Positions 21,836 through 55,264 of a DNA stretch of 64,000 nt are shown piece by piece. The stretch's first letter is position 1, and each line of letters begins with the position of its first letter. The stretch is from IMG/VR virus record IMGVR_UViG_3300044974_001280, positions 1 to 64,000 of that record; one strand, given 5' to 3'. The position numbers were made by a program, and so were the translations under genes. The notes under the pieces are model-generated. The model was not told where the DNA came from. It saw only the letters and a program-made list of their open reading frames with translations, and made no database searches. This stretch comes from a virus.

Positions 21836-22390
21836 ATGGCAGGTTTACCTCATTTTCAGAATTCTCTGTACTCTATTAACAAATACGAGCCAGTTTATCT
21901 CAACCAATTCGAAGTGGTTGTAATTCCTCCAGCAGCTGTGGCAGGGGGTCAGCTTCTTCTTGAACAAGTTATGAGCGTAACCGGAATGGACGTGGATAAA
22001 AACCCGTCCTTTGTTTTCCAGAAGTACAAGTTTGCCAAAAGAAACTATGCCGGTGGTAAGCCAGATAGTACCGTCTTCGATTTAGGCTTAAGATTCAATG
22101 TCAATTTGAACGATGACAATTCAATGTACACTTTCAAGACTTTAAGACAGTGGACCGATTTGATCTATAATCCTTTGACGGGAGCCATGGGCATTAAATT
22201 AGATTACACAGGCACTATCATCATTTCGATTTTTAATAAAAATGGTGATGTTTTCAGAAGGATTACCTGCCGAGATTGTTTTCCGCTCAAGGCAATCGAC
22301 CCCATGGAACTTGATTACACTAATGGCACAACCTTGTATGAAATCAACATGAATTGGGCAGTTGATTATTGGGAAGATCTTTTCCTCTAA
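21836..22390 (+). CDS. Tail tube protein (gp19-like), copy 1
   Basis: This 184-residue protein matches contractile-tail tube proteins: YEPVYLNQFEVVVIPP near residues 17-32, RQWTDLIYNPLTGAMG near 103-118 and SIFNKNGDVFRRITC near 129-143. It forms the inner tube within the sheath and lies straight after the sheath gene, as in T4. A late promoter element ends only 8 bases before the ATG, so transcripts from it would be almost leaderless. A paralogue follows 15 bases downstream. Confidence 0.9.
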   Translation: MAGLPHFQNSLYSINKYEPVYLNQFEVVVIPPAAVAGGQLLLEQVMSVTGMDVDKNPSFVFQKYKFAKRNYAGGKPDSTVFDLGLRFNVNLNDDNSMYTFKTLRQWTDLIYNPLTGAMGIKLDYTGTIIISIFNKNGDVFRRITCRDCFPLKAIDPMELDYTNGTTLYEINMNWAVDYWEDLFL

Positions 22391-22405
22391 AAAATAAAAT
22401 TCACT

Positions 22406-22987
22406 ATGTCCGGTTTACCACATTTCAATAATTCACTAGCAGCCAGGAACAATTTCGAGCCAGTTTTCTTAAACCAGTTCGAAGTTATCATTACCCCACC
22501 TGCTGCCGTGACTTTAGCAAATGTCAGATTTAACGGGGAGTCTATCATGACACAGCAGGTAAAAAGTATTGGTGGGAGTTTAGCAGTAGACATCCAGCCA
22601 GCCGCGCCGGTGACTCAATACTACAAATTCGCCGAAAGAAGATATGCCGGCGGTGAACCGTCAACTTCGGACGTAGAGTTTACCGTTAATTTCGAGGTGA
22701 ATTTAGATGAGAACAACTCGATGACTATTTACAAAATCCTGCGCCAATGGTCCGATTTGATCTACAATCCTTTGACAGGTGCGATGGGCCTAAAAAGAGA
22801 TTACGTTGGTCAAATGATTGTTTCTATTTTTAACAAACAAGGGGATGTATTCCGACGTCTAACTTTTAATAACTGTTTTTTGGTCAATCCTCTAACTACT
22901 ATGGCCCTTAGCTACGAGACTGGTGACGGCCTTTACGAGCTTGAAACAACCTGGAAGTCTGACTATTGGCAAGATCAGTTTTTATAA
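22406..22987 (+). CDS. Tail tube protein (gp19-like), copy 2
   Basis: This 193-residue paralogue of the preceding tube protein shares LPHFxNSL at the N-terminus, EPVFLNQFEVIITPP, RQWSDLIYNPLTGAMG and SIFNKQGDVFRR. By eye roughly half of aligned positions are identical. The main difference is an extra loop near residues 32-58. The gene has no promoter of its own and follows after 15 bases. It may form a specialised end of the tube (tube initiator or terminator, like T4 gp54 or gp3 in role) or alternate with copy 1. Confidence 0.88.
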   Translation: MSGLPHFNNSLAARNNFEPVFLNQFEVIITPPAAVTLANVRFNGESIMTQQVKSIGGSLAVDIQPAAPVTQYYKFAERRYAGGEPSTSDVEFTVNFEVNLDENNSMTIYKILRQWSDLIYNPLTGAMGLKRDYVGQMIVSIFNKQGDVFRRLTFNNCFLVNPLTTMALSYETGDGLYELETTWKSDYWQDQFL

Positions 22988-30340: not shown

Positions 30341-31015
30341 ATGTCTCAAAACTCAATCACCGGCGGAGATCTTGATATTTTTGGTGGTTCTTCTACCAAC
30401 GAATCTCCCCAACCCCTCTTTGGAGAAGGAACTGCTATTTCGGGTTTAGACCCTGGACCTAGTGCTACCTTCGAAACCCGCTATACCTTAATAGCCCTGA
30501 ACCCCAGCGGTCTTGAGAGAGTTAACTTGACATTTTCTGACGTCAATGATCCTAACAACATTCGATTTTATAACACCTCTATGAATGTTGCATGGCAGGA
30601 TGTTACCGAGCAAAAGTTAAATCTAAGCGACTTCTTTTACCCTCTACAAGATTTTTCAGGTTATCAGCAACAGACTTTTGTCATTTCCCCTAATACCTCT
30701 GTTAATTTAGATCAAGGAGATTTCGACACTACCCTTGGGGAGATAGGTCTTTTAATGGCCAGAGCCCAGTTCAATGCTGATGCAGAACCGGAACAACGTC
30801 TTCTATATTGGCAATACGGAGGAGATGACCGTTATATTATGGCAGATTTTATGATGCTAACTGGCCAAGTTAAAAACGGATTTCCTTGGAAGGGCTGGCA
30901 AACAAGTAACAACGTTAGCCAAGAAATAGGCTATACAGGAGCCGCTACTGGTGGATTTATTTTTTCGAATCCGACCGAGTATTCTGTAAAATTAACAATA
31001 TTAACAGCAAGCTAA
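30341..31015 (+). CDS. Virion-associated protein, paralogue of 31015 gene
   Basis: This 224-residue protein is probably beta-rich. Its C-terminus (DFMMLTG, then GW, ATGGFIFSNPTEYSVKLTIL) matches the C-terminal pattern of the next gene, showing an ancient duplication. There is no signal peptide. It starts 1 base after the membrane protein gene's stop, and its own stop overlaps the next ATG. It could be a head decoration or fibre-like protein. Function is unknown. Confidence 0.55.
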   Translation: MSQNSITGGDLDIFGGSSTNESPQPLFGEGTAISGLDPGPSATFETRYTLIALNPSGLERVNLTFSDVNDPNNIRFYNTSMNVAWQDVTEQKLNLSDFFYPLQDFSGYQQQTFVISPNTSVNLDQGDFDTTLGEIGLLMARAQFNADAEPEQRLLYWQYGGDDRYIMADFMMLTGQVKNGFPWKGWQTSNNVSQEIGYTGAATGGFIFSNPTEYSVKLTILTAS

Positions 31016-31557
31016 TGGCAACTAGACCTATCCCTTGTCCTCCTGCAGTTCCTAATGGCTGGGTTTTTTTTAAGGACCAATTTGTGTTAGAACAAGACTA
31101 CCAATACACCACTTTTTTTAATTTCAAAGATTTGGCTTTTGGAGTTGTAGCATATTCCAGGCTTAGAATTAGTTTAAAAAGAGGCAGATCTGTTAAATTA
31201 AGTCAATCCAATATTGGAACTGAAGGTTTTGTTCGATGGATAGCAGTAAAAGTGCAGTATCCAGCTCCTAAGAATCCTATCCTTTATGCATCTCAAACCC
31301 CAATTATTCCAGGTGTTCCAACTCCTACCAATGGCACACCCCAAATTCAGAAATATATCACCTGGACCTATCAGGGTAGAACTTTAAATCTGGGAGATAT
31401 GATGGTGCTTACAGGTAATCCTTTAGGGTCGACTGATTCTGAAGTTACTGGTTGGAACCTGAGTGAGGATGATTTCCTATTTGCTGGAGGCGGAATTACT
31501 TTCACGAATCCTCATTCAGATTTTGATGTCAAACTAGAAATTTTAGTTGCAAAATGA
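31015..31557 (+). CDS. Virion-associated protein, paralogue of 30341 gene
   Basis: This 180-residue protein shares with its neighbour the C-terminal pattern DMMVLTG, GW, GGGITFTNPHSDFDVKLEIL, and differs in the N-terminal half (VPNGWVFFKDQFVLEQDYQY). Its ATG overlaps the upstream stop. A palindromic region with two late-promoter-like boxes follows its stop codon. Function is unknown; late expression suggests a virion role. Confidence 0.55.
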   Translation: MATRPIPCPPAVPNGWVFFKDQFVLEQDYQYTTFFNFKDLAFGVVAYSRLRISLKRGRSVKLSQSNIGTEGFVRWIAVKVQYPAPKNPILYASQTPIIPGVPTPTNGTPQIQKYITWTYQGRTLNLGDMMVLTGNPLGSTDSEVTGWNLSEDDFLFAGGGITFTNPHSDFDVKLEILVAK

Positions 31558-31626: not shown

Positions 31627-34335
31627 ATGGATTTACTCACACAACTCAAAACCCTCAAAGAAAATTCTCAGAATCCTGAGGTTGTTCTTTTTTGCGAAAA
31701 TAGCATCAGGGAGATACAGCAAGGTAACAGCAACCTAAATGAAACAATGCTGTTTGATCAGGTTCAATCTTTGCAAAACACACAGCAGTCAACGGAGAAA
31801 AATCCTTTGGAAATCATTAGAGAGCAAGAAATGTCAACCTCTAAGAATGCTGCCACTAGAATTCTTGAATCATGGGGTGGTATAGGTTCTAAAACTTTCA
31901 AAAGTGCTGGTAGCTATGTCGATGGTGTTGAGGAGAAAAAACAGGTCTCACATCAGAACATCAATGAGGGCATTTCTTCTTTTGCATCTCAAGACGCAGG
32001 AGTAGCTTCTCTGATGAAATCTCAAGAAGTTCACAATCTTGGAATTTTAGAATCCATTTTGAGCCTTAAGGATGCAGGAATCTTCGAGCATCCTTCTGTT
32101 AAGATCCTGGCAGAAAGATACTATCATTTGTTGAAAGGGAAAAATCTGCCTGAATTTATTATAGCAGAATCTTTTCTTGGAGAACTAGGTAACTTCAACT
32201 GGGATCAGGACGTTAAACGGATGTACGAAGGTATTTCGAATAAAATTTCTAATTTGAGACCTGAAATCGAAGTGGCCAAAGCTTTGTACGCAATCAGTCA
32301 AAATGGAACACCTGATTTTTACTCTCCAGTAACAGAATCTCTGAACAAATGGCTGGTGTCTGAAAACAAATCGATTTCTCTACTTTCTCAAGAGATTTCT
32401 AGATGGCAGTTCAATCCTATTGTTAAAAATCTCCTAAACAATCTTTCTCTGATGGAAAGTACAAGCCGTCAGCTTCATGTTCCTGTTAGTTCTGGTAACA
32501 GTGAAGTGAGTAAAGTTTATTCTCCTGTTTTTGTAGAAGGTGGAAAAACCCTATTTGTTCTGGGCAAAAATGTTTTCGAAGCAACTTCAAATGGAATTTC
32601 AAAGCTCAGACACGGTCAAATAGCTTCTCTGCCAAACCGGTATCTGTCCTTGTTAGAGTCCTATGCTAATTTGAACACCAAGGCTGATGAAAAAGGTCTT
32701 TCGATTTACTTAGGCAAAACCAGAATTCTTTTGGTGGAAGAGAGCGAAAAAACTTCGGTTTACTTCGGTGGTAAGAAATTGAACTTCTCTGACTATAATC
32801 AATTTGCTCGAATTCTGTCGATTGAGATGAGCAAAACTTTGGGTCTCAACGAGAACAAGATCATCAGAGACGTTATCAATATCTATGAGAATTTCAGTAG
32901 CATCGTGGAATTGGATTTCGCCAAAACTATTTCTTCTAAATTGTATGAAGGTGCCGCAGTACATTTGATGAAATGGGACGGTAAGATCTATTTGAACAAG
33001 ATCAACGAGTCAATGAGAGAAGATTCTTTCTATGTTGTGAATGGCAATCAGGCTACATCAATGGTGAAAGAATTCTTGAAATATGATATTTCTGAAGGTC
33101 TCACTCAATTTTTAGATGGTGAGAATAGAGTTAAATCTGTTATGATGAACGATAGAAAAGTTCTGATGGAGAATATAGCTCTAGTTGAAACTCAGATCCA
33201 GAAGATTGAGAACCAGATGTCAAAAAGTCCTTTGTTTGCAAATTCTCAAGAAATGCAAAATGCCAAATACCTCTTAGAAAGAGAGCTTGGAATTCTGAGA
33301 CAGAAATGGTCGGTTGTGAATGAAGAAATTAAGAAAATTGAATCTGCTCCAGATCCAATTCATAACATGAACGAGGACGATGATTTCAATGTGGGGGAAT
33401 ACGTAAAGGTGAAAGAATCAGGCAACACGGGTAAAATCATTTCTATCAACGGTTCATCTGGTTCCTATACTGTCTTAATGGACAACGGCAGAACTGGAGA
33501 ATTTAGATTGGATGAAATCATCAATCTAGACGATGCGCTGGCTGCCGCTGGTGACGAGAACGAAGCCGAAGCAGAAACCCAAGAAGAATTGAAAGAAGGA
33601 ACTCAGCCTTTAGCATCGGCTCCAGGTTCGTCAAAAACGGGTAAATTAGACAAATCTGTTGCTGCCACTATGAGAAAAAGTACCACAAAAGCTCCTGCAG
33701 GTTCTCATCAAAACGAAGCTGGAAAAAAGGACATTGAAGATCTGGATGACGCCAATCTAGAAGAAGCACCAGCAGGTCAAAAACTAACAAAATATAAGGC
33801 TTACAAAAAAGCTGGATATAACCTGGCTGAATCTAAAGGCACAGGTAAATCCACTTCAGCCCCAGAAACCAGTTGGGAATCAGCAAAGGCAAAGGAAATG
33901 AATCTGGCAGTTGCCCCAGGTAAAACAAACTATGACTCCAGTTATTTCTACAAGACAAAAGTCACTCAAGGGGAATCTAAGAATCCCGAAGTGATGAAAA
34001 CGGACCCCAATTTTGCTGCTGCTCCAGGTACTCAAGGAGCTGGTAAAGATCTGAAGTACAGAGTCAGCTCGGAGATGGGTTACAACGTAGATGAAATGGC
34101 GGAGATCGAAAAGACCAATCAAGAGTTGGCAAAAGCCCCTGGTCCTATTGGAACATACGGCAAAAAATTCGGCGCCAGAACCATCCACGGAAAACCAGGT
34201 AAACCCGAGGTCATGAACATCGATCCTAATTTTGCTAATGCCCCAGGAATGAACTCAAAAGGTGAAGTTGATTACGATCTAAATGACGAAATGGGTTACA
34301 ATCTGGACGAAAGCCAGGAGTCAAAAAAAAACTGA
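31627..34335 (+). CDS. Large virion/head-associated protein with KOW-like domain and APG repeats; -1 frameshift at its end
   Basis: This is a 902-residue zero-frame product. Residues 1-575 are mostly helical. Residues ~590-640 (VGEYVKVKESGNTGKI, SYTVLMDNGR) resemble a KOW/SH3-like barrel. Residues ~660-890 hold about seven diverged units with LAxAPG or FAxAPG cores (DPNFAAAPG, NQELAKAPG, DPNFANAPG), two followed by EMGYN(V/L)DE. It ends AAA AAA AAC TGA, a canonical A-AAA-AAC slippery site directly at the stop. The -1 frame continues to 34508 with similar SFAP motifs. It has its own late promoter 27 bases upstream. A head or internal virion role is inferred. Confidence 0.6.
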   Translation: MDLLTQLKTLKENSQNPEVVLFCENSIREIQQGNSNLNETMLFDQVQSLQNTQQSTEKNPLEIIREQEMSTSKNAATRILESWGGIGSKTFKSAGSYVDGVEEKKQVSHQNINEGISSFASQDAGVASLMKSQEVHNLGILESILSLKDAGIFEHPSVKILAERYYHLLKGKNLPEFIIAESFLGELGNFNWDQDVKRMYEGISNKISNLRPEIEVAKALYAISQNGTPDFYSPVTESLNKWLVSENKSISLLSQEISRWQFNPIVKNLLNNLSLMESTSRQLHVPVSSGNSEVSKVYSPVFVEGGKTLFVLGKNVFEATSNGISKLRHGQIASLPNRYLSLLESYANLNTKADEKGLSIYLGKTRILLVEESEKTSVYFGGKKLNFSDYNQFARILSIEMSKTLGLNENKIIRDVINIYENFSSIVELDFAKTISSKLYEGAAVHLMKWDGKIYLNKINESMREDSFYVVNGNQATSMVKEFLKYDISEGLTQFLDGENRVKSVMMNDRKVLMENIALVETQIQKIENQMSKSPLFANSQEMQNAKYLLERELGILRQKWSVVNEEIKKIESAPDPIHNMNEDDDFNVGEYVKVKESGNTGKIISINGSSGSYTVLMDNGRTGEFRLDEIINLDDALAAAGDENEAEAETQEELKEGTQPLASAPGSSKTGKLDKSVAATMRKSTTKAPAGSHQNEAGKKDIEDLDDANLEEAPAGQKLTKYKAYKKAGYNLAESKGTGKSTSAPETSWESAKAKEMNLAVAPGKTNYDSSYFYKTKVTQGESKNPEVMKTDPNFAAAPGTQGAGKDLKYRVSSEMGYNVDEMAEIEKTNQELAKAPGPIGTYGKKFGARTIHGKPGKPEVMNIDPNFANAPGMNSKGEVDYDLNDEMGYNLDESQESKKN

Positions 34336-34508
34336 AAAAAATCCTGAGCCGAGTTTGGTCTTTCGCTCCTTCCAGCCCGGATCAAAACGACAAGCCTAAG
34401 CCTTTTGTGGTAGACTACAAAAAAGGCATGAGCTTTGCCCCCACCGGCAAGAATGAGGGTGAAAACCTCATCTCTGATGAGGATGGTGATTTTTCAGAAA
34501 AAGAATAA
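34332..34508 (+). CDS. -1 frameshift extension of the 31627 gene
   Basis: This is a 58-codon frame, -1 relative to the upstream gene, starting at the CTG read after slippage on A-AAA-AAC (34326-34332) and ending TAA at 34506-34508. It has no good start codon of its own near its beginning. It contains VWSFAPSSPDQ and GMSFAPTGKNEG, echoing the APG-type units of the upstream C-terminus. A programmed -1 frameshift giving a 959-residue product fits best. A decayed frame or initiation at an internal GTG or ATG is the alternative. Confidence 0.6.
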   Translation: MKKILSRVWSFAPSSPDQNDKPKPFVVDYKKGMSFAPTGKNEGENLISDEDGDFSEKE

Positions 34509-34563: not shown

Positions 34564-34923
34564 ATGTCGAAGATCTATGTAACTAATCAAAATCTGATGG
34601 AGGCAATTCTTGAATCTAAAGAGAAGGGAGAATTAACACCAGCAGCCATAGAAATGTTCACTCTGATGATCTCGGGCATTTCTAAAAAAATGTCTTATAA
34701 GGATCCTGATGATAAAGATGATTGTATGGCTTTTGCCATGGAGGATCTTTGCAAATATTGGAATAGATTCGACCCAGAAAAATCCAACAATCCTTTTTCC
34801 TATTACACCCAAATAGCCAAAAATGGGTTTGCAAAAGGCTGGAAAAAAATACATCCCCCCAAATCACCTAAGACTATTCCTTTTTCTCACATCACGGGAG
34901 AAGATAATTCTTATAATGTGTAA
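34564..34923 (+). CDS. Late promoter sigma factor, T4 gp55-like
   Basis: This 119-residue protein aligns in pattern with T4 gp55 over residues ~25-97: MFTLMISGISKKMSYKDP, DDCMAFAMEDLCKYWNRFDP and NPFSYYTQIAKNGFAKGWKK (the sigma region 2-like part that recognises the late TATAAATA box). It is shorter than T4 gp55 (185); the C-terminal sliding-clamp-binding segment of gp55 is not evident. The GATATATA elements before structural genes are its likely targets. It overlaps the gp4-like gene by one base. Confidence 0.75.
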   Translation: MSKIYVTNQNLMEAILESKEKGELTPAAIEMFTLMISGISKKMSYKDPDDKDDCMAFAMEDLCKYWNRFDPEKSNNPFSYYTQIAKNGFAKGWKKIHPPKSPKTIPFSHITGEDNSYNV

Positions 34924-35405
34924 TGACTGATATCAAAAAAATCAAGCCAAATGGCAATTTTAAATCTGGCGTATTTGCCCCTTTAAATCCAGAAAAATAC
35001 ATCGGAGATATCAATAACATCATTTGCAGATCAAGCTGGGAATACAGGTTCTGTAAATACTGTGATTCGAATCCACTGATTTTAAAATGGTCTTCTGAGC
35101 CCCTGCCAATTCCTTACTACAACCCTTTAGATCAGAAAGATCATAAATATCATGTTGACTTTTACATGAGGGTCCAGCAGGAAAACGGGGAACAGCAGGA
35201 ATGGCTTATCGAGGTAAAGCCCCAGAGACAGCACGAAAAACCAGTTTTCGAAGGAAGCAAAACCAACGAAAAATTGAAATCCTACAACGATAAGATGAAA
35301 GTCTGGATCACCAATCAGGCTAAATTTAAAGCGGCAAAAATCTGGGCAGAAGCGAGAGGAATGAAATTTGGAGTAGTAAACGAGAATTTCCTATTTAACA
35401 AGTAA
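34923..35405 (+). CDS. Head completion nuclease, T4 gp4-like
   Basis: This 160-residue protein has the gp4/gp50 pattern: SGVFAPLNPEKYIGD near 15-29, IICRSSWEYRFCKYCDSNP near 33-51, VDFYMRV near 77-83 and EWLIEVKPQRQHEKP near 92-106. This is a TnsA/PD-(D/E)XK-like core with Glu-39, Asp-78 and Glu-x-Lys near 96-98. T4 gp4 finishes filled heads before tail attachment. It is translationally coupled to the gp55-like gene. Confidence 0.8.
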   Translation: MTDIKKIKPNGNFKSGVFAPLNPEKYIGDINNIICRSSWEYRFCKYCDSNPLILKWSSEPLPIPYYNPLDQKDHKYHVDFYMRVQQENGEQQEWLIEVKPQRQHEKPVFEGSKTNEKLKSYNDKMKVWITNQAKFKAAKIWAEARGMKFGVVNENFLFNK

Positions 35406-35506: not shown

Positions 35507-37111
35507 ATGGCAGGTTTTAGCGAGAATCCAAACACCAATCCAATCTTTCAGAAGATTAGGGATTCGGTTAAAAATCTGAGTAATTTCGGGATCCGATATG
35601 GTGACATGGTTGTCAAAAATTCTCAGGCTATTGGGGCCACTGAAGCTGAATTTTTGAAAAAAGGACCTATTGAGGATGAAACCACCTTCTTTTCTTTAGG
35701 TCGCCAAGACACAACCACCAGGCAGTATATTTCTTATTTTGATAAAGACTATGCGGGAAAAAGAGATTATCTGAGAAAATTCTCTTTGAACCCTGAGATA
35801 GAATACATTTTAGACACTGTCTGTGATGAATCTATTACTTACGATTCTTATAATTTCTTTGCCTATCCAGCTTTTCTGAACCTATCTAATCTTAAAAAGT
35901 CCGTTATCGATCGCATCGATTCGACTTATAAGAAACTGTATGACATGTTCGGTTTCAACGATGACATTTCGGCCTGGCAGTATTTCAGGCAAATGCTGGT
36001 GGATGGATTTATTGCCTTTGAGATTGTCTTTGATGATAGCGGCAGAAACATCATCGGATTTAAAGAGCTAGATGCCACGACCCTCATGCCTTCTGTGGAA
36101 AAACAGAAAGACGGAACTTTTTTGAATGTTTGGTATCAATACCCTAAAGATGAAAGAAAAAGAAGAATGTTGTACGACTCTCAGGTCATCTACATTTCTT
36201 ACGCCAAAGGCAATTCTATTTCTAGAGTTAGCTACACAGAAAGACTGATTAGACCTTACAATGTCTTGAGAATTATCGAATACACCAGAGTTATTTGGTC
36301 GGTCATGAATGCTTCTTTTAGGATGAAGATGACCATTCCGGTGGGATCTAGATCCCAACAGAAAGCAATGCAAACTCTGGGAGAATTGATGTCTATCTAC
36401 AAAGAGGACATCCAGTTTAACGACGAGAGTGGAGAACTTTCTGTTAACGGCCAACCCAAGATTCAGTTCTATAAGAACTATCTAATGCCCAAAGGAGCAG
36501 GAGGCACCCCTTCTATTGAGCCTCTAAACACGGCAGGCCCCAATCTGAATGATCCTGCCCCATTAGCCTATTTTTTCGATAAATTAGTGCAGGAATCAAA
36601 AATTCCTTTTTCCCGGTTTCAGGGGCCTGATGGCGGATCTATTGGAAAATACGCTAATGCTGCCGAAGGTTTAGATAAAGAAGAAATCAGATTCTCTAAA
36701 TTTATTATGAGGCTTAGATCTGTATTTCAGGATATCCTGGTTAAGCCTCTATGGATTCAAATCTGTAAAGATTTTCCCCAACTAGAAAAGGATTACACTT
36801 TTAAATCCCAATTAGGTCTAAGCTATGTTTCAGATAACCCCTTCCGGGTTAACCAGGAGATTGAAACCATTACGAAGAGAAAAGAATTTATAGATTCTCT
36901 TTATACCCTCACCGACGAGGAAGGAAATCCTTTCTTTTCTATCTCATATCTAGTGGAAAACTACATGGGTCTTACTGAGGATGATATAGCTTCTAATAAA
37001 AAAGCCAGAAGTGATAACAAATTAAAATCTGCTGAAGAAGCTGCGGCTGCCAGCGCATCTCCGCCAGCGGGCGAGTCCGAGCCAGAAGTAGCACCAGAAA
37101 CCCCAGTATAA
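35507..37111 (+). CDS. Portal protein (gp20-like), copy 1
   Basis: This 534-residue protein matches T4-like portals in length and motifs: MVVKNSQAIGATEAEF near 34-49, SLNPEIEYILDTVCDE near 94-109, GFKELDATTLMP near 184-195, SYAKGNSISRVSYTERLIRP near 236-255, and MRLRSVFQDILVKPLWIQIC near 401-420. The ring forms the head vertex and DNA channel. It has a late promoter 58 bases upstream and one of the few strong Shine-Dalgarno sequences here (aaaggaggaata). A second portal gene follows after 5 bases. Confidence 0.92.
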   Translation: MAGFSENPNTNPIFQKIRDSVKNLSNFGIRYGDMVVKNSQAIGATEAEFLKKGPIEDETTFFSLGRQDTTTRQYISYFDKDYAGKRDYLRKFSLNPEIEYILDTVCDESITYDSYNFFAYPAFLNLSNLKKSVIDRIDSTYKKLYDMFGFNDDISAWQYFRQMLVDGFIAFEIVFDDSGRNIIGFKELDATTLMPSVEKQKDGTFLNVWYQYPKDERKRRMLYDSQVIYISYAKGNSISRVSYTERLIRPYNVLRIIEYTRVIWSVMNASFRMKMTIPVGSRSQQKAMQTLGELMSIYKEDIQFNDESGELSVNGQPKIQFYKNYLMPKGAGGTPSIEPLNTAGPNLNDPAPLAYFFDKLVQESKIPFSRFQGPDGGSIGKYANAAEGLDKEEIRFSKFIMRLRSVFQDILVKPLWIQICKDFPQLEKDYTFKSQLGLSYVSDNPFRVNQEIETITKRKEFIDSLYTLTDEEGNPFFSISYLVENYMGLTEDDIASNKKARSDNKLKSAEEAAAASASPPAGESEPEVAPETPV

Positions 37112-37116
37112 TAGAC

Positions 37117-38742
37117 ATGGCAGGATTTTTAGATAATGCTCAGGAAAAATCTTTTTTGGGGGTTCTGTACAGAAACCTCGGAAAGATTAGTAAATTCGGG
37201 ATGCAATATGAAGATATGGTTATCCGTAATTCTCAGGCCATTGGTGCTACCGAATCGACCTTTTTTAACAATCAAGGCACTGGTTTTACCGAAAATGATG
37301 CCTTTTTCTGGACTTTAGGTTACCAGGATACCAGAATCAGAAAATACATCGCCTATTTTGATAAGGATTATCTTGGTAAAAGAGAATTCCTTCGCAAATT
37401 TGCTCTCAACGGAGAAATAGATTTCATTCTAGACACCGTTACTGATGATGCGATAAACTACGATGACAAGAATTTTTTCTGCTACCCCAGTTTGGTGAAT
37501 ATTGAGCTGAAAGACAACGTCAGGGAGAGAGTGGAAGAAAATTTTAGAACCTTATATAATCTTTTTGGCTTTCAACAAAGCATTCTGGCTTGGCAGTACT
37601 TCAAGCAGTTTTTGGTTGATGGTTTTTTGGCTTTTGAGATTGTTTATTCTACAGATGGCAAGAAAATAGTTGGATTCAAAGAACTAGACGCCACCTCACT
37701 TCAGCCGGCCACTGAAAAACAGCCCAACGGGGAATTCCAACAAATTTGGATCCAATATCCTCAGGACAACCGAATGACCAGAAAGCTGAAATCGGAACAG
37801 GTTATTTACTTGTCTTACGCCAAGGGCAATGCTGTCTCCAGAGTTAGCTACACAGAAAGGCTCATTCGTTCCTATAACATTTTAAGGGTGATGGAAAATA
37901 CGAGAGTTATTTGGAATGTCATGAATGCATCCTATCGACTGAAGTTCATTATCCCTGTTGGTACTCAATCCATGCAAAAAGGCATGCAGACTCTTGGTCA
38001 ATTGATGTCCCAGTACAAGGAGGAGATCCAGATCAACGACACTTCGGGGGAACTAACGGTCAATGGTGCACCCAGAGTCCAGTTTTATAAAAACTATCTG
38101 TTCCCTGAGAAGGACGGCGAATCTCCTGATATTAGCACACTCAACCCCAGCGGACCGGATTTTAACGTGATGGAAAATGTTGTTTATTTTTACAACAAAT
38201 TGAAGTTGGATTCTAAAATCCCTTACGCCAGGTTTTCAGCCAGATCCGGAACCCCTGCTAATTATCAGATTAGCATAGATCAGTTGGAGAGGGACGAAAT
38301 TCGATATGAAAAATTTGTAACTCGTCTGAGATCTGTTTTCCAGGAGATCCTAGTTAAACCTCTTTATATCCAAATGTGTCTAGATTTTCCTGTTTTGTCA
38401 AAGGATCGTACTTTTAAGGTAAATTTGGGTTTAGATTATGTGAAGGAAAATGTCTTCGAACAAATGATTCAGTTGTCCAACTATTCCAAGAGAGCATCTT
38501 TTATTTCCAGCATGGGTGAGATAAAAATGAAAGTGGGGGAAGAGGAATTACCCTATTTTGACAAAGAATGGCTTATCAAAAGATGGCTGGGTCTTAGTAT
38601 GGATGAATACAGGATGAACGAAAAGTACAAGAAGGAAGAGAAGGAAGAAGCAGATAAATTAAAGAAAGATCAAGAGAAAGAAGGAGAGAAGAAAGGAGAA
38701 GGGGGAGAGGGACAAGCAGAAACACCTAGTTTTACCCTATAA
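37117..38742 (+). CDS. Portal protein (gp20-like), copy 2
   Basis: This 541-residue full-length paralogue of copy 1 has RNSQAIGATESTFF near 38-51, GFKELDATSLQP, SYAKGNAVSRVSYTERLIRS, and TRLRSVFQEILVKPLYIQMC. The fold-defining regions are collinear throughout and neither copy shows frameshifts or missing blocks, so both are likely functional. The C-terminal 40 residues are a Lys/Glu/Gly-rich tail (EKEGEKKGEGGEGQ) unlike copy 1's Ala/Pro tail. It starts 5 bases after copy 1, so the two are co-expressed. Confidence 0.92.
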   Translation: MAGFLDNAQEKSFLGVLYRNLGKISKFGMQYEDMVIRNSQAIGATESTFFNNQGTGFTENDAFFWTLGYQDTRIRKYIAYFDKDYLGKREFLRKFALNGEIDFILDTVTDDAINYDDKNFFCYPSLVNIELKDNVRERVEENFRTLYNLFGFQQSILAWQYFKQFLVDGFLAFEIVYSTDGKKIVGFKELDATSLQPATEKQPNGEFQQIWIQYPQDNRMTRKLKSEQVIYLSYAKGNAVSRVSYTERLIRSYNILRVMENTRVIWNVMNASYRLKFIIPVGTQSMQKGMQTLGQLMSQYKEEIQINDTSGELTVNGAPRVQFYKNYLFPEKDGESPDISTLNPSGPDFNVMENVVYFYNKLKLDSKIPYARFSARSGTPANYQISIDQLERDEIRYEKFVTRLRSVFQEILVKPLYIQMCLDFPVLSKDRTFKVNLGLDYVKENVFEQMIQLSNYSKRASFISSMGEIKMKVGEEELPYFDKEWLIKRWLGLSMDEYRMNEKYKKEEKEEADKLKKDQEKEGEKKGEGGEGQAETPSFTL

Positions 38743-48183: not shown

Positions 48184-48888
48184 GTGGCCTACATTTCAGA
48201 TTTTGAAAATTTTCTTCTAGTTGAATCCGATTCAACTTCCCAGCCTGTTTTTAACGGGATCTGGGATCCTATGGTAGACGGAAAGGGAAAAAGACACTGG
48301 AGGTTGAATGTGTTAGTCTTATCCAAACTCAAAAAGATAGCAGAGGAGGCTCACGATCACTGCCGGGGGAATTTCCAAACTGAATTAAAGGATGTGGTTC
48401 TACTGTGTCCTGCTAATTTTACGAATTCCGAGGACGATCTGGATCTGGTTCTGCTCGTGGAAAAAAGAGGGAATTTAAAAAAAGGATCCAGATCAGAAAT
48501 GGAAGACCAAATGAACGAACATCTCTCTGACTACGTGGCTGAAAAAAACCCCCGTCTTAGAGGCAAAGAGGTGGAGATAGAAGCTTCTACATCCGATTAC
48601 TTTCCTAAAAGGCTAGGAGTTTATTCACTTTTTGACAACAAGTGGCTCCAATCACCTCCCTCTGATCAGGATTTAGATTTTGTGGGGGTATCAGTCAAAA
48701 AAATTATCGGAGCAATCAAAAAACTAGATTCTTCTTCTTTATCAGAGACCCCCCGAAAAAAAATTCAGAAAATATCCAGACAGATCCAGAGACTCAAAAG
48801 ATCCGGTCCAACTGGCATAGGGTCCTACAATCATCTGTTGTCGGGTGGATATATACACAAAATAATGGATCTCCTTTCCAAAAAATAA
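48184..48888 (+). CDS. Head-module protein with capsid-targeting-like N-terminus
   Basis: This 234-residue product starts with GTG directly after the terminator T-run. Its N-terminus AYISDFENFLLVES matches the amphipathic F-x-x-F motif shared by several genes here and includes an L-V-E potential prohead protease site at residues 12-14. Residues ~75-100 (NSEDDLDLVLLVEKRG) form an acidic beta hairpin that could belong to a nucleotidyltransferase-like fold, but without supporting motifs. It is a putative internal head protein. Confidence 0.55.
   Translation: MAYISDFENFLLVESDSTSQPVFNGIWDPMVDGKGKRHWRLNVLVLSKLKKIAEEAHDHCRGNFQTELKDVVLLCPANFTNSEDDLDLVLLVEKRGNLKKGSRSEMEDQMNEHLSDYVAEKNPRLRGKEVEIEASTSDYFPKRLGVYSLFDNKWLQSPPSDQDLDFVGVSVKKIIGAIKKLDSSSLSETPRKKIQKISRQIQRLKRSGPTGIGSYNHLLSGGYIHKIMDLLSKK
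48848..48855 (+). promoter_or_regulatory. Late promoter element (GATATATA) inside the 48184 gene
   Basis: This exact copy in the 3' end of the preceding coding region lies 40 bases before the ATG at 48896, giving the large internal protein its own late promoter. Confidence 0.55.
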
Positions 48889-48895
48889 TTTTCTT

Positions 48896-51397
48896 ATGTA
48901 CACCATTCTCGACACAAAAAAAATCATCAAGGGCAGTTATGCTGACCCTAAAAAAGAACCTGGTATTTTTCCAATTGTTAATTTACCACTGGACGACGAG
49001 GGCGAGGACATGGAGTTAAACGACTTTCAGTGGGTTGCCCCAACAGATAGATGGTTGGAGTGGTTAAAAGAAAACCCCAGAGATTGGCAAGCCGAGAGCG
49101 AAGATTCTCGATATGAATTCGACTATATTCTGGTTGAATCATATTCAACAGAGGAAGATCCCTACCTATTTCTATTTCAACCTCAAAATTACGACCAGCC
49201 CACATCAGAAAGTTATCTCCAGTCCTTCGATGAGTTTGCCCAGATCTACGAGGAGGAATTGGACGGTGGATCGGAGGAATTAACAGGCAGAGCGGTCAAA
49301 CTTGCCTTTGCCTTAGAGAAATTAAACAAAGAAGGCAAACTGAAAGAGGAGCTCAACCCCAGCGAGCTAGACAAAGCTAAAGAATATGCCATCATTTTCG
49401 ACCCGGTCGACTCCGCCAAGAACGAGGTCATTCCAAGCGGGAGAAACGCAGTCCGATTTAAACTTCTCTCTCAAGATGAAGACACAATTTCAGTTGGTAA
49501 AATAGATTATTCCCTGTTGACCGACGAAGACCTGCCCGACAATATGACAGCTGAAGAGCAGAGTGAGTGGATGAAAGGGTTACTTGATGAGGCAGGAGAC
49601 ATAGGAAAGGCAGGGATCTGGGGTTTAACTGCCTATGGTGTAGCAACAACTGTAGGTGGAACAGTCGGTACCTATCTTAGTTATAAGGGTATTCAGAAGT
49701 GGATGCGAAGAGGAACTACAACACCTCCTCCAGGTGGTACCCCTCCAGCCGGTCCTGGTTTAGTATCCAGAATTGGAACCTGGCTCAGCGGACGTAGAGC
49801 CTGGCTTAGCGGAACACGAGCAGCCTCAGGACTAAGATCACTTCACGTTGCGGCAGCTGGAATTCCAAGACTTGGCTCTTTATTTGGAGGAGCCGCATCC
49901 GCTGCTGCCGGAGGGTCAGCTGCAGTTGGAGCCGGTATAGCTGCTGGTGTTTTAGCAATAGTTTCAGCTGCCCAACAAGTTTATAATTGGTCGTCTACCA
50001 ATCAAGCTCCCACATACAGTAAACTGAAATCTTTCGCCAAAGATTCTTTCGTTCCTAGAAACACTCCTGCCGGTGGTTTAATTACTGTGTGTTGGACCGC
50101 AGACGGAGGGAAAGGTTTTTGGGGAAATATAACAAATATCTTCAAAGACGATACTAGAACAACCATGAATCTAATGAAGCTGGCAAACACGGATAAAAAA
50201 GCTGTTTTTCTCCTTCTCTCTGTCAACTCTGAACAAATCCAAAAAGAGAGGAACCAGTACGATGCTATTCTTTTTTCTTTCGATCTAGATTCTGCTTTTG
50301 AACACGGATATTTGGATAACGACGATTTAGAATTCCAAATCATTAGGATCAAACCTCTCAGTGATTTCTCGACCCCGACCTCGTTTGTCGCCTACTGTGA
50401 ATGGTCGGAACTAAAATCAGCTTTTGATTCGGCTCCAGATAGTCCGTTTGTTGTTCCGGCAGATGCTCCTGACAGCTATGTCTTTAATTATCAGCAAGGA
50501 GATCAGAGAGCCAATATACAAGGTTCTCTTCTATCAGCTGAAACCATAGCTTCTCAACGTAGTTTGTTTGAGAGTGATTCGGCAGATCTTTCGGATGTTG
50601 TCTTTATTAGTAACACCTCGGTTCTGGAAGGCAACAAGGCTTTAGGCTTCAATGAATTCTGGAGATCTAACTCTATCTCTCTGTTCGAAGAAGACAAAAA
50701 TTCAGCAGATGAGAGCAAAAAAGATTCTAAATCGGTTCAATTAGGAATCTCGAAAGATTCGGATTATTCACAAACCGAAATCATAGTGTACGAGGTCAGT
50801 AGTAACGAATTTGCCAACCCCAATGCCAGCGGAAACCCTCCAGAAGTTAACTACTTTATAGTAGACAAAAGAAGCTTATCAGCCACTGATGGCCAATCTG
50901 TGAAAGTTGAATCGTCGGCAGGAAAAAGATTCCAGGATGCTAAATACGGTTTAGCAATTTATAAAGAAGAGACCGAAGACACAAAACAGAAAAAAGGGGA
51001 AGGAGATGAAGAAGATGAGGAATCTTTAGCCCCAATTCCACCAACAGATGGCAAAAAAGACACAGGTTCATTACTCACCTCTCCTGATGATGTTTCAATC
51101 AAGGATAGAAGAAGAAGAACTGTTATTAAAGACAAACCAACCAATAGGGAGGAAGATGTCAATATTATAGATGATATTCTTACAAACGATGATAAAAAGT
51201 CTTTAGGTATTCAGGATTGGAAAACCCTCACAAAAATAGTTCTAGTTAAAGATAAAGAAGGTTATCCAGAAAAAGTCATTCTGAAAAATCAAACCCAAGG
51301 CAGAGATAGAACTAGAAGAATTAAGAGAGGTGAATCAGGATTTGAAACCGCTGTTAAGATAGCTGATAAGGTTAAAAGTTCAATCAAATACAAATAA
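48896..51397 (+). CDS. Large internal virion protein with Gly/Ala hydrophobic centre
   Basis: This is an 833-residue unrecognised protein. Residues 1-235 are acidic. Residues ~240-355 contain hydrophobic Gly/Ala-rich stretches (IWGLTAYGVATTVGGTVGTY and GAGIAAGVLAIVSAAQQVY) around a Pro/Gly/Arg linker, which could insert in membranes. The C-terminal half is mixed alpha/beta and ends in Lys/Arg-rich segments with KOW-like VLVKDKEGYPEKVIL. A segment LQSFDEFAQIYEEEL near 107-121 resembles the capsid-targeting motif. A late promoter lies in the end of the preceding gene. An ejected or internal head protein is a reasonable hypothesis. Confidence 0.5.
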   Translation: MYTILDTKKIIKGSYADPKKEPGIFPIVNLPLDDEGEDMELNDFQWVAPTDRWLEWLKENPRDWQAESEDSRYEFDYILVESYSTEEDPYLFLFQPQNYDQPTSESYLQSFDEFAQIYEEELDGGSEELTGRAVKLAFALEKLNKEGKLKEELNPSELDKAKEYAIIFDPVDSAKNEVIPSGRNAVRFKLLSQDEDTISVGKIDYSLLTDEDLPDNMTAEEQSEWMKGLLDEAGDIGKAGIWGLTAYGVATTVGGTVGTYLSYKGIQKWMRRGTTTPPPGGTPPAGPGLVSRIGTWLSGRRAWLSGTRAASGLRSLHVAAAGIPRLGSLFGGAASAAAGGSAAVGAGIAAGVLAIVSAAQQVYNWSSTNQAPTYSKLKSFAKDSFVPRNTPAGGLITVCWTADGGKGFWGNITNIFKDDTRTTMNLMKLANTDKKAVFLLLSVNSEQIQKERNQYDAILFSFDLDSAFEHGYLDNDDLEFQIIRIKPLSDFSTPTSFVAYCEWSELKSAFDSAPDSPFVVPADAPDSYVFNYQQGDQRANIQGSLLSAETIASQRSLFESDSADLSDVVFISNTSVLEGNKALGFNEFWRSNSISLFEEDKNSADESKKDSKSVQLGISKDSDYSQTEIIVYEVSSNEFANPNASGNPPEVNYFIVDKRSLSATDGQSVKVESSAGKRFQDAKYGLAIYKEETEDTKQKKGEGDEEDEESLAPIPPTDGKKDTGSLLTSPDDVSIKDRRRRTVIKDKPTNREEDVNIIDDILTNDDKKSLGIQDWKTLTKIVLVKDKEGYPEKVILKNQTQGRDRTRRIKRGESGFETAVKIADKVKSSIKYK

Positions 51398-51422
51398 TCT
51401 CAAAAATTTAAAATTTCAGAAA

Positions 51423-51445
51423 TTAGAATAGATATATAATTCTAA
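51423..51445 (+). promoter_or_regulatory. Late promoter element in a 7-bp inverted repeat before the protease-scaffold gene
   Basis: TTAGAAT (51423-51429) and ATTCTAA (51439-51445) are perfect inverted repeats on either side of GATATATA (51431-51438). The ATG at 51463 is 24 bases beyond the promoter box. Confidence 0.7.
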
Positions 51446-51462
51446 ATAAAAAATAACAGCCC

Positions 51463-53493
51463 ATGAGTCTAGGTCCTTTTGGAGAAGATATGGTTTTCAT
51501 TCTGGAAAAACAGAATCACCATGTTAATGTTTCGAAACAGAAAGTAGATGGGGACAATGTTTACACATTGAAAGGAATTGCTGCTCAATTTGGTAAAGAA
51601 AACAACAACAATAGAATCTACGAAGAAGCAGAATATCTACCCCATCTTGACTACTTGAACGAGAAAATCAAACAAAAAAGATTGGTTGGTGAACTAGATC
51701 ACCCCGAGAAATTTGATGTCTCTCTCAGAAACATTTCACACATCATCGAAAATCTCGAGTATGATAAAAACGGTCGGGTACTGAACATTAAAGTCAAGTT
51801 GCTTGATACTCCCGCAGGTCAGATTGCCAAGAAGCTGGTTGATGCCGGTGTTCCTCTTTCTATTTCTTCAAGAGCTGCTGGTAATGTGGGTCCGGATAAA
51901 AAGGTTCAGATCAAAAAGATCTTCACTTACGACCTAGTCGCAGATCCTGGTTTTCAAGACGCCCAATTAGAAAGAGTCTATGAAAGCGCGGGCTTTTCTT
52001 TTTCGGAATTCGCCGACAAGACTAAAAATTCCATTGTGAGCCATTTAGAGTGTATCAATGAATCTTTGGGTCTAAAAAATAACGATTCAGTAAAGATATA
52101 TAGAGTCGAAAATAACGAAGAATTCGAAAAAATATTCACAACAGAAAAAAATAACATCGATATTATGGAGTCACAAAAAAGAGAATTCGTTACGGCCGAA
52201 GAGCTCAACAAATATTCTATTTTTCTGAAAAAGAAAATGGAGGAAATGGAAATGCAAATTCAGGAGATGAAGAGCAGTTCACCACAGTCAAGCAATGCAT
52301 CTGAAAATGCTCAGCTGTTGGAGAGAATTGACCGTCTAGAAGAATATTCCGAATATCTAGCCGAAAATTTAGAGGATGCTATCAAATACGGCGAATATTT
52401 GGCTGAAAATTTGGACGACTCCATCAATTACAGCAAGTATCTGGCCGAGAGCCTGGATAAATCGATCTCTTACTCGAAGTATTTGGCCGAGAATGTAGAC
52501 AACTCTATTTCTTATTCAGAATACGTAGCAGAGAATGTGGATAGAACCATCAACTACTCGAAATATTTGGCAGAAAAGATCGACGATGGTATTCAGTACA
52601 GCGAGTATGTGGCTGAAAACCTAGGTAACAGTATTGCCTACTCTGAATATCTGGCCGAAAACGTCGACAGAGGAATTGCCTACTCTGAATATCTGGCCGA
52701 GAAGGTTGATAGGAACATTTCGTACTCTGAATATCTGGCCGAGTATATCGATAAAGACATCGCCTACTCTGAATATCTAGGAGAAAAAATAGATCAAGGT
52801 ATTTCTTACTCTGAATATCTGGCTGAAAAACTAGATCAGGGTATCTCTTATTCGGAATATCTGGCTGAAAATGTGAACAGGACTATCTCTTACTCTGAAT
52901 ACATTGCAGAAAAATTAAACGGCACAATTGAATTTGGTGAGGCACTATCAGAAAAAGTTGGTTATCCAACCCATCTGAATTCCAGAGCCAGATCAGAAGC
53001 AAATCTTGCCGCTAAAACTGAATTATTTGAATCAGGATTTGCCGGGGATTATAATAACCTCGGAAGTCAAATCGATTCATTAATCGAATCGGTCCAAACC
53101 CAAAAGACCGAATTAACCCGGGCCCAACTGGTTGGAAGGCCCTCTGCCCACACTCCAAAGGCAGAAGAGATGCTCAACGAGAATCAATCAGCCACCATTT
53201 CCTCCTCAGGTCATAAATTTATCGACGAAATGCCGGAAAATTATGCTCCAATTTGGGAATCTCTCAACGAAGGACAGAAGCAATCTATTATTGCTCAGTC
53301 CGCTTTCTATCGATTGGAGACACCTTATCAGATCAACAATTTCTGGTCTACTCGTAACTTGAGGAAAGAAACGGTGACTATGCAGAGACTCGATGAGAAT
53401 CAACAAACCCATGCTCTTCCCCAGTCGACGACTCGTGCTTATGGAAGTGATTACCTAAACTGGGTAGCTCAATCACTGGAGAAAAGATTCTAA
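51463..53493 (+). CDS. Prohead protease (gp21-like) fused to repeat-based scaffold
   Basis: This is a 676-residue protein. Residues ~30-165 are a gp21/S78-type prohead protease: GIAAQFGKENNNNRIYEEAE, VGELDHPEKF (catalytic His) and PLSISSRAAGNV (catalytic Ser). A coiled-coil linker follows. From residue 295 to 490 there are fourteen 14-residue repeats, consensus YSEYLAENVDxGIS, with a decayed fifteenth. The C-terminal ~150 residues are conserved-looking (SGHKFIDEMPENYAPIWESL). Each repeat has an (L/I/V)-x-E triad, the T4 prohead protease cleavage type. T4 encodes protease and scaffold (gp22) separately. The capsid gene follows after 26 bases. Confidence 0.85.
   Translation: MSLGPFGEDMVFILEKQNHHVNVSKQKVDGDNVYTLKGIAAQFGKENNNNRIYEEAEYLPHLDYLNEKIKQKRLVGELDHPEKFDVSLRNISHIIENLEYDKNGRVLNIKVKLLDTPAGQIAKKLVDAGVPLSISSRAAGNVGPDKKVQIKKIFTYDLVADPGFQDAQLERVYESAGFSFSEFADKTKNSIVSHLECINESLGLKNNDSVKIYRVENNEEFEKIFTTEKNNIDIMESQKREFVTAEELNKYSIFLKKKMEEMEMQIQEMKSSSPQSSNASENAQLLERIDRLEEYSEYLAENLEDAIKYGEYLAENLDDSINYSKYLAESLDKSISYSKYLAENVDNSISYSEYVAENVDRTINYSKYLAEKIDDGIQYSEYVAENLGNSIAYSEYLAENVDRGIAYSEYLAEKVDRNISYSEYLAEYIDKDIAYSEYLGEKIDQGISYSEYLAEKLDQGISYSEYLAENVNRTISYSEYIAEKLNGTIEFGEALSEKVGYPTHLNSRARSEANLAAKTELFESGFAGDYNNLGSQIDSLIESVQTQKTELTRAQLVGRPSAHTPKAEEMLNENQSATISSSGHKFIDEMPENYAPIWESLNEGQKQSIIAQSAFYRLETPYQINNFWSTRNLRKETVTMQRLDENQQTHALPQSTTRAYGSDYLNWVAQSLEKRF
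52095..52102 (+). promoter_or_regulatory. Internal late-promoter-like GATATATA inside the protease-scaffold gene
   Basis: This exact copy of the late element lies 62 bases before an in-frame ATG at 52165 (residue 235, MESQKREFVTAEELNKY). That position follows the protease domain and precedes the coiled coil and repeats. It could drive a scaffold-only product of about 442 residues. Chance occurrence in AT-rich coding DNA is possible. Confidence 0.45.
52345..52932 (+). repeat. Fourteen tandem 42-bp (14-residue) scaffold repeats
   Basis: The units encode YSEYLAExxDxxIx. Fourteen residues equals two heptads, consistent with a continuous helical or coiled-coil rod. DNA identity between units is moderate, highest in units 7-13 (gaatatctggccga recurs). 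Confidence 0.95.
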
Positions 53494-53519
53494 AAAAAAA
53501 CAAAAAAAACAATAAAAAA

Positions 53520-55241
53520 ATGAAACTAATTAACGAAGCCGAGATTTTTGATACCTGGGCACCTATTATTGAACAAAAAGCTGGTATCACTGATCCCTCA
53601 AAACAAACTTGGTTGGCAAAATATTGCCACTACCACTCCCTCAACGAGTCTGCCGGTGCATATCAGTCGTTGAATGTCGTCAACGGTATGGGTGCCGTTA
53701 CACCTCCTACCTTCCCAGCAGCAACAGCAGCCGGTTCTCTTGGCGGTCTAACTCCTAACCAAGGATTCTACAGCCAGTCTTGGCAAGGATCTGGCGATAA
53801 GTTCCCTTCACTTCTTCCTTTGGCTATTCAGGTAGCTGCGAAGACTGTAGGTTTCGACATCGTTCCAGTTATTCCAATGTCCGGTCCTTCTGGCGTTTTG
53901 TCCTACCTTGACTATGTGTATGCCGGTGGTAAGATCAGCCCGCAAAACGCCGGAACTACAGCTGCCGAGGCTTTGGCAAATGCTCCTACAATGATCAAAT
54001 TGCAAATCACTACCCAGACGAACATGTCTTTACTAGAGGTAGGACCAAATACACCAGGTACAGATTATTACATCTCCAACGCCAGTGCTTCAGCTACTGA
54101 ATACATCACTGCTAGGTTTGTAGGCTACTCTAGAATTGATGGATTTCCAATTTTTGAAATCACAGCAATGACCGCAGGTGAAACTGTTGCCTCCGTTCTT
54201 AGCGGAGGTGCTTTCATTGGTACTACAATTGCCGGAGATGAAGTTGGTAGTACCACAGCTACTGCTTCTCTGGTTAAGGCTCTAGAGGATCACATTCAGG
54301 GTTTCTCTGGTGCAGGTTTTTATGACGATCAGAATTGGCAAGGTCCCTTCACCGATGGCACACAGACTTACAATCCGATGCTAAGAAGTGTAGGTGAAGA
54401 AAACTACTACAATTTGATGGGTCTAACGACTTTCACTAAGTTCGTAGAAGCCGACACCTTCCAGGTAGCCGCTTCCGTTACCACGGAGCAAATCCAGGAT
54501 CTCAACAAGCAATTCGGAATCGATGTTATCTCAATGATCGAAAACGCATTGGTGAATGAGGTTTCTCAGGCTATCAACAAGCACATCTTGTCAAGGGCAT
54601 TTGCTTTAGGATGGTCTAACACCTATGCTTTCTTCCAAACAGAAGCACAGAATTTGAACTTGAGCCTAGTATTGGGTGGTGCAACAGGAACTACCCTTGC
54701 CTATGTTACTAAAACTGACGGAACCCAATCAATGTCTATCCCAGCCGGGCCTGCTAATGGAGGTTACGAGAATTTGTCAACTCTACAGAGAAGGCTTTTC
54801 TCCCGGATCTTGGCAGCTGCCAACATGGTAGCTAACAGAGGTAGAAGAGGTCCTGCTAACTTCATTGTTACCAACGCTAATTTGGCTTCGGCAATGCAGG
54901 ACATCAGCCAATTCACTTTCGCTCCTTTCACTAACACCTTGACTCAGAACAATGGTACTCTGTATCCAGTAGGTTCTTTGGCAGGTATGACTGTCTACGT
55001 CGATCAAAACATGAGATTCTCCGATAACCGTATCCTAGTCGGTAGAAAAGGTGGAGACGACGAGCCAGGTCTAAAATTCATGCCTTACATGATGGCTGAA
55101 TCTATCCAGACTATCTCCGAGGGAACTATGTCTCCTAAAATCGCGGTCAAGTCTCGTTACGCTCTAGTAGAAGCTGGTTTCCACCCAGAAACCATGTATG
55201 CTACTTTCTTCGTACAAGTTCCGGTTGGAGGTATCAACTAA
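53520..55241 (+). CDS. Major capsid protein (gp23-like)
   Basis: This 573-residue protein matches T4-like gp23. The N-terminal arm MKLINEAEIFDTWAPIIEQ resembles the T4 gp23 start, and GDKFPSLLPLAIQVAAKTVG then FDIVPVIPMSGPSG open the HK97-type core. The C-terminal ALVEAGFHPETMYATFFVQV is also typical. A likely maturation site is HSLNE/SAGAY after residue 43 (L-x-E type), comparable to T4 cleavage after residue 65. Codon use and richer GC near the middle are as expected for a highly expressed gene. A strong terminator follows. Confidence 0.95.
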   Translation: MKLINEAEIFDTWAPIIEQKAGITDPSKQTWLAKYCHYHSLNESAGAYQSLNVVNGMGAVTPPTFPAATAAGSLGGLTPNQGFYSQSWQGSGDKFPSLLPLAIQVAAKTVGFDIVPVIPMSGPSGVLSYLDYVYAGGKISPQNAGTTAAEALANAPTMIKLQITTQTNMSLLEVGPNTPGTDYYISNASASATEYITARFVGYSRIDGFPIFEITAMTAGETVASVLSGGAFIGTTIAGDEVGSTTATASLVKALEDHIQGFSGAGFYDDQNWQGPFTDGTQTYNPMLRSVGEENYYNLMGLTTFTKFVEADTFQVAASVTTEQIQDLNKQFGIDVISMIENALVNEVSQAINKHILSRAFALGWSNTYAFFQTEAQNLNLSLVLGGATGTTLAYVTKTDGTQSMSIPAGPANGGYENLSTLQRRLFSRILAAANMVANRGRRGPANFIVTNANLASAMQDISQFTFAPFTNTLTQNNGTLYPVGSLAGMTVYVDQNMRFSDNRILVGRKGGDDEPGLKFMPYMMAESIQTISEGTMSPKIAVKSRYALVEAGFHPETMYATFFVQVPVGGIN

Positions 55242-55264
55242 TCCATCGGATCAAATACGTCAAC

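Follow-up and report, generated by a model that had tools for sequence, protein, structure and literature searches.

Known slippage sites and phage frameshifts

Slippage at runs of A residues and frameshifts in phage structural genes are both already known. According to the review PMC5009743, efficient slippage by bacterial RNA polymerase occurs at 9 A or T residues, and the hybrid of the Thermus polymerase is 9-10 bp long. In tssM genes, set-ups in which slippage leads to the long form and set-ups in which it leads to the short form have both been described (PMC4256274, in the part available). Citrobacter rodentium tssM1 and Yersinia pseudotuberculosis tssM3 resemble the phage locus analysed here in having an A run near the stop codon and two C-terminal lengths, whereas tssM1 differs in that it has 11 A's, is a bacterial secretion gene and had its slippage tested by experiment (PMC4256274, same part); here, 9-10 A's lie in a phage gene, are conserved across a clade and are known from sequence alone. 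The dnaX gene of Thermus thermophilus is similar in its run of nine and its short and long products, and is close to the arrangement of one lineage described below (L214), but encodes a DNA polymerase subunit of a cellular organism and not a phage protein (PMC5009743, available portion). In Shigella spa13, slippage gives a C-terminal extension to 25-30% of the product, and this extension runs into the gene that follows, which is also seen in one group of relatives here (group 3), although spa13 is a type III secretion gene and its extension measures 112 aa (PMC5009743, available portion). By the same partial account, lambda G/GT is alike in that a frame change near the 3' end yields a lengthened version of a structural or assembly protein, but lambda G/GT, T7 gene 10 and Listeria phage PSA differ in that they depend on ribosomal slippage at short motifs or on +1 shifts (PMC5009743). 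The nearest case found in our searches is slippage suggested for one methyltransferase gene of a Campylobacter phage (PMC2853527, in the part available).

Among the titles and abstracts listed by our literature searches, we recognised no conserved polymerase-slippage switch in tailed DNA phages. T7 gene 10 and Listeria phage PSA also yield a second, longer structural or assembly form via a frame change near the 3' end, and we know of no homopolymer-length constraint on the frameshifts of lambda G/GT, T7 gene 10 or PSA. As far as these searches show, the novelty here is that a clade of tailed phages has kept a putative slippage site on a homopolymer and that swapped, re-phased and split versions of it exist. 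If true, slippage by the polymerase would act as a deeply conserved switch in tailed DNA phages, and the swapped, re-phased and split lineages would offer a comparative test bed for the evolution of slippage sites.

Layout of the junction

The window, that is, the whole stretch of DNA that was analysed (64,000 nucleotides), covers the opening 64 kb of a virus record of 230,445 bases. An earlier note on this DNA had proposed a programmed -1 shift at A-AAA-AAC at the end of a 902-codon frame. The 3' end of that frame indeed reads TCA AAA AAA AAC TGA and every detail given of it is correct, including the phase of the heptamer, the stop directly after it (34326-34335) and the 58 open codons of the -1 frame. 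The features of the gene are the following:

31627-34335, + strand: zero-frame ORF, short form, 902 aa, C-terminus ESQESKKN followed by the stop; homologues found
33379-33534, + strand: KOW/Tudor-like small barrel (about residues 585-636 of the core), from Pfam PF20297, predicted structure and fold matches
33604-34322, + strand: low-complexity tail with repeated [LF]AxAP motifs, from reading of the sequence
34323-34331, + strand: nine-A run, the putative conserved slippage site, with C at 34332
34326-34332, + strand: A_AAA_AAC heptamer, correctly phased for a -1 shift in this phage but not itself the unit that is conserved
34333-34335, + strand: zero-frame stop, TGA in this phage; most relatives have TAA or TAG
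34332-34508, + strand: -1-frame extension, 58 codons (34332-34505), then TAA at 34506-34508

Reading across the junction in the -1 frame gives S K K K L K K I L S R V W S F A P..., and the product of slippage would be a protein of 960 aa that comprises the 902 residues through ...SKKK followed by LKKILSRVWSFAP...

Conservation of the junction among relatives

Searches with the core protein, which are blind to the junction, reached relatives down to ~30% identity (in the two deepest, the best 80 of 198 and the best 80 of 199 relatives were examined), and a search with the 58-aa extension alone retrieved 34 IMG/VR loci, all 34 of which have nine A's (A9) and a zero-frame stop. The collection holds 164 rows in all, including six that end before the junction (L089, L111, L113, L133, L199 and L232) and L144, in which A9 is present, the extension is cut by the contig end and which is outside the junctions counted here. 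Among the matches listed, the run comprises nine A's in 69 and ten in five of the 74 distinct junctions (156 loci), counts that come from related loci and not from independent events, for which the tree counts given below correct in part; a run of nine or ten A's is present in every examined relative whose sequence reaches the junction. The script behind these 74 junctions picks the longest A run upstream of the extension motif and could favour long runs. Measured at the zero-frame end, independently of that script, 70 of the 77 distinct junctions (again among the matches listed) consist of 9-10 A's, one base and a stop. The remaining seven were read singly: L197, L201, L214, L211, L212 and L217 each have a run of 9-10 A's where the extension begins; L003 had been entered at a wrong start and was dropped (its contig is that of L030, which has A9).

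The relatives fall into four groups. Group 1 is window-like and has C after the run, and group 2 (~44-49% identity) has T. Group 3 (~30% identity) has G or C after the run, and its extension is unrelated and 83-84 aa long. In group 4 (35-41% identity to the window where listed), the extension is of the [LV]SRN[FY]YFAP type and the codon before the run is GTA, YTA, CAA or GAA. Outside this collection, tblastn of the 902-aa protein against named phages returned only LR756500.1, and the same search with L191 also retrieved Lak phages at ~20% identity; the homologues in LR756500 and Lak-A1 do not have the A9-tail arrangement. Among 37 pattern matches in bacterial genomes, no homologue was confirmed.

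Homopolymers are error-prone, and the earlier note had named an assembly error in the A run among the things that would refute its reading. Because the run is conserved across relatives, in 74 distinct junctions from many metagenomes and between diverged flanks, with a contig from another metagenome (L001/L005) showing the same junction as this phage, an assembly or sequencing error is so improbable that it can practically be set aside.

Lineages with altered arrangements

In L214, L215 and L226, which come from three metagenomes, the extension follows A9 in the zero frame, and a -1 move stops early (KPQS-stop) with the run still nine long. An indel has put the extension in frame while the run was kept, giving the reverse set-up, in which slippage would produce the short form; the relation of these loci to the common junction is similar to the reversal between tssM3 and tssM1 (PMC4256274, in the part available). 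In L197 and L201, the run sits in another phase. In L212, L213 and L217, the extension has become an independent ORF that starts at an ATG of its own, MSSNKILDFFSYINEENADVKKNLSRNFYFAP..., and A9 is still present. The start of the split ORF in L212, MSSNKILDFFSYINE, resembles by eye the T4 capsid targeting sequence and has an I-x-E site; in T4, internal head proteins carry an N-terminal capsid targeting sequence with an L/I-x-E cleavage site (PMC9026906, in the part available).

In L211, a homologue that is otherwise open has an in-frame stop after codon 254 (SISK-stop-AFN, L211:3707), which is either an error or a real interruption; the A9 site and the extension are intact downstream of that stop.

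Selection on the A run

For the analysis of substitutions, a tree of 72 zero-frame proteins was used, from which L001, L003, L144, L211, L212, L213 and L217 had been removed beforehand and in which five group 3 rows begin inside the protein; the 69 members with the common phase were scored, with L197, L201 and L214 kept out of the tree statistics because their phase differs. The codon before the run is TCA in 28 of the 69, TTA in 14, GTA in 12, CTA in 10, CAA and GAA in 2 each and ACA in 1; that is, the residue can be S, L, V, Q, E or T, and the third base is A in 69 of 69. Mapped on the tree, this codon underwent 10 amino-acid changes, 14 first-base changes and 0 third-base changes, compared with a minimum of 4 and a median of 18 third-base changes in 230 control columns with 8-14 amino-acid changes; the share of A-ending codons in these genes is 22% for Ser, 49% for Leu, 30% for Val and 34% for Thr. 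Furthermore, both Lys codons of the run are AAA in all 69 proteins, against 9-16 third-base changes in each of five other near-invariant Lys columns. The codon that follows the two lysines is AAC in 43, AAT in 13 and AAG in 13 of the 69, and the base after the run in the 74 distinct junctions is C in 45, G in 15 and T in 14.

Because the third base of the preceding codon is fixed and the base after the run is free, the conserved unit appears to be a stretch of at least nine consecutive A's with free flanks and not A_AAA_AAC, which accounts neither for the first A of the run nor for a kept last base. One part of the earlier proposal stands: the change of frame is strongly supported, and some programmed change of frame very probably occurs at the A run. 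The heptamer as the working unit is not supported, given that its last base is C, T or G in the proportions just listed, that it is out of phase in L197 and that the selected run includes a wobble base outside it.

A runs elsewhere in the genomes

A census of A and T runs in 836 ORFs (705 kb) of the 72 loci, with expectations from synonymous shuffling, shows how rare such tracts are elsewhere in these ORFs. Runs of nine A's were found 8 times against 49.8 expected and runs of at least 10 were found 0 times against ~28 (combined, 8 seen against ~78 expected), where the expectation takes in the Lys-rich gene itself and the counts are not independent, the loci sharing genes. Runs of eight are also scarce (56 against 145 expected for A; 13 against 36.6 for T), and runs of 5-7 in ORFs are close to expectation. 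Hence, long A runs appear to be strongly purged from the genes of these phages. The whole record has 13 A9 places, this junction included; within the window, the two others lie outside ORFs or across an ORF end, and most of the ten beyond the window lie outside ORFs or at starts.

Two A9 tracts are well inside ORFs, of 327 and 301 aa, at G000:C1:170274 (+) and 229648 (-), and are possible further slippage sites.

This distribution bears on the possibility that the junction is a phase-variable tract, the length of which differs between phage genomes in the DNA itself and switches the extension on or off. Homopolymers do mutate by DNA slippage as well, L214 shows that an in-frame state can become fixed, and minor variants could be hidden by consensus contigs, the consensus metagenome sequences used here being of a kind that may conceal minority run lengths. 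However, an 8-A version occurs in 0 of the 74 distinct junctions (156 loci, among the matches listed), no in-frame 10-A version of the common site was seen, the five A10 cases still stopping in the zero frame, and long A runs are depleted in the other genes. Phase variation is accordingly rated as very improbable.

Coding of the extension

Changes in the -1 frame at codon positions 1, 2 and 3 number 24/12/81, 8/3/34, 29/19/45 and 10/5/59 in the four groups, and because of this excess at the third position in all four, the extension appears to be under protein-coding constraint in that frame. Sixteen group 1 extensions have 19 invariant residues in common. In this phage, the 58-aa extension runs from LKKILSRVWSFAP... 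to SFAPTGK and then an acidic end. Two xAP motifs are found in the extension of 63 of the 72 representatives, the zero-frame tail has a median of six, and AP is ~28 times denser in the tail of the main protein than in its core, which strongly supports the earlier suggestion that the extension belongs to the same protein. If the proposed slippage is real, it also serves as a warning that gene callers will truncate or overlook extensions of this kind.

A separate gene with its own start would need no change of frame, and in L212, L213 and L217 the extension is indeed an ORF with an ATG. In the window, by contrast, the invariant LKKILSRVW lies upstream of any in-frame ATG, GTG or TTG (the first, a GTG, is codon 26), the extension of L147 in group 3 is without such a start codon before about codon 29, and the conservation of A9 would be left unexplained, all of which makes a separate gene a far-fetched alternative.

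Polymerase or ribosomal slippage

What marks a slippage site, a homopolymer of at least nine within a gene and selection on run length with free flanks, is found at this junction, and the kept run with its free flanks is no less compatible with slippage by RNA polymerase than with -1 frameshifting by the ribosome. We consider it fairly probable that RNA polymerase slips at the run of at least nine A's and that two C-terminal forms of a probable virion protein result. Transcripts with nine A's would give the short form of 902 aa. In a fraction of transcripts, the polymerase would insert one A as its RNA:DNA hybrid of 9 bp shifts register along the homopolymer, and the extra A would lead translation past the zero-frame stop and add the 58-aa tail, giving the form of 960 aa. 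Polymerase slippage is favoured because a minimum of nine agrees with the length of the hybrid (9-10 bp) and with the efficient slippage reported for nine A's or T's, and because the following base is free and no local RNA structure was found. The lineages L214, L215 and L226, which keep A9 though their extension is already in the zero frame, are also counted in its favour, as is the scarcity of such runs in the other ORFs. That slippage takes place at all, that the polymerase slips and not the ribosome, that the phage needs the two forms in a fixed proportion and that their place is in the virion is what we infer from these patterns.

The main rival is ribosomal -1 frameshifting, in which tRNA-Lys pairs would slip on AAA_AAZ with the mRNA unchanged, yielding the identical two proteins. 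The phage cases named in PMC5009743, in the part available, work by ribosomal slippage. Not only is an in-phase A_AAA_AAZ, with the stop directly after it, present in 69 of the 69 typical junctions, but L197 and L201 retain an in-phase A_AAA_AAA; moreover, A9 amounts to two overlapping heptamers (A_AAA_AAA and A_AAA_AAZ), which could alone select for the ninth A. Against the ribosome stand the third base of the preceding codon, an invariant A although it lies outside the heptamer, and the E. coli data in the part of PMC5009743 available, which argue against indifference to the last base of the heptamer, although these phages probably infect hosts that are not closely related to E. coli. Stimulatory signals, of which a downstream stem-loop or pseudoknot is usual but not always present and an upstream SD-like element occurs at some sites, may also speak against it, no downstream structure having been found and no SD-like usage. 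RNA folds around the junction were no better than those of shuffled sequences (window z-scores -0.34 to 0.24), and an alignment fold of 20 sequences gave a consensus of -1.08 kcal/mol with 0 pairs changed on both sides, in tests that cover local folds and not pseudoknots or long-range pairing. SD-like motifs at gene starts show no excess (3 of 60 against 3.07 expected on shuffling); GAGGAG or GAAGAG precedes the run in many group 1 loci (scored in group 1). On balance, we regard ribosomal frameshifting as a serious contender, if the less probable of the two.

The fuller proposal built on polymerase slippage is that, throughout a clade of large dsDNA phages, slippage at one kept A9-A10 tract, with such tracts purged elsewhere, determines how much of each form of a virion protein is made, and that the slippage-added tail is a modular capsid- or partner-binding tag, which one lineage has exchanged for an unrelated tail, a second has re-framed so that slippage gives the short form, and a third has split off with a start that resembles a capsid-targeting sequence. 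We consider this combination plausible, falling just short of probable.

The core protein, its neighbours and the host

The gene lies between tail and head genes, and is followed by:

34564-34923, + strand: T4 gp55-like late sigma factor (phrog_234, E 1.4e-14; Sigma70_r2 at 22.1 bits, below the cut-off of 24)
34923-35405, + strand: head closure/completion protein (phrog_218, E 4.8e-46)
35507-38742, downstream: a tandem pair of portal-type genes, each matching phrog_213 (E 4.8e-59 and 6e-59)

The gp55-like signature was found within 1.2 kb downstream in 61 of the 71 representatives, the ten without it all belonging to group 2, and the pairing of the core gene with the gp55-like gene may point to a role in late transcription, which was considered.

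The core has no match in PHROGs, and in Pfam only a sub-threshold SH3-like one (PF20297 MSSS, 23.2 bits against a cut-off of 26.8). Its predicted structure, of moderate per-residue confidence (pLDDT) and a more tentative overall arrangement (pTM), consists of helices, among them a long coiled coil, together with two beta regions and a barrel of Tudor/KOW-like type. A PDB fold search with the core gave 0 matches at E <=0.001, and the PDB matches taken up in a second look cover mainly the coiled coil and the barrel. Eight models of viral proteins matched at E <=0.001, seven of them uncharacterised phage proteins and one labelled DNA ligase (phage pT24). Two candidates from phage PTm1 were rejected: ORF-242 (442 aa), which had been taken as the fold match A0A5S9HXP5 (442 aligned-target residues) by length only, gave a weak profile comparison of very low probability and has neither A9 nor AP repeats, and ORF-295, picked by position, showed no resemblance to the 902-aa protein. 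The core homologue of L212 has two peptidoglycan-binding domains (PF01471, E 2.1e-26), which hint at contact with the cell wall and hence at a protein that is part of the virion; from this insertion and the position of the gene, the protein is probably virion-associated.

The L212 counterpart of the 902-aa protein is encoded at L212:5001-7793 with one PG_binding_1 domain at residues 121-171, and L213 and L217 are alike by length.

Capsid and portal proteins are closest to those of LR756500, other large phages, the Prevotella Lak phages, the Tenacibaculum phages PTm1 and PTm5, a Flavobacterium phage and the Sphingomonas phage PAU. The clade is one of large T4-like phages, the host of which is probably a member of the Bacteroidota because of these affinities and the lack of an SD-like excess at gene starts.

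Several other features of the window deserve mention. In the head region at 48184-63376, a [FY]xx[FWY] motif near the N-terminus is present in 8 of 13 ORFs compared with 3 of 47 elsewhere (for example, MIKKFDSFRLNE, MSYILDFESY and MIKKFSEFRNRV), and these motifs could direct internal head proteins to the capsid. At 21836-22987, two neighbouring genes encode small proteins that resemble each other, MAGLPHFQNSL... and MSGLPHFNNSL..., and are perhaps duplicated tail tube-like genes. Finally, at 30341-31557, two neighbouring ORFs without a family match have similar C-termini (FSNPTEYSVKLTILTAS and FTNPHSDFDVKLEILVAK).
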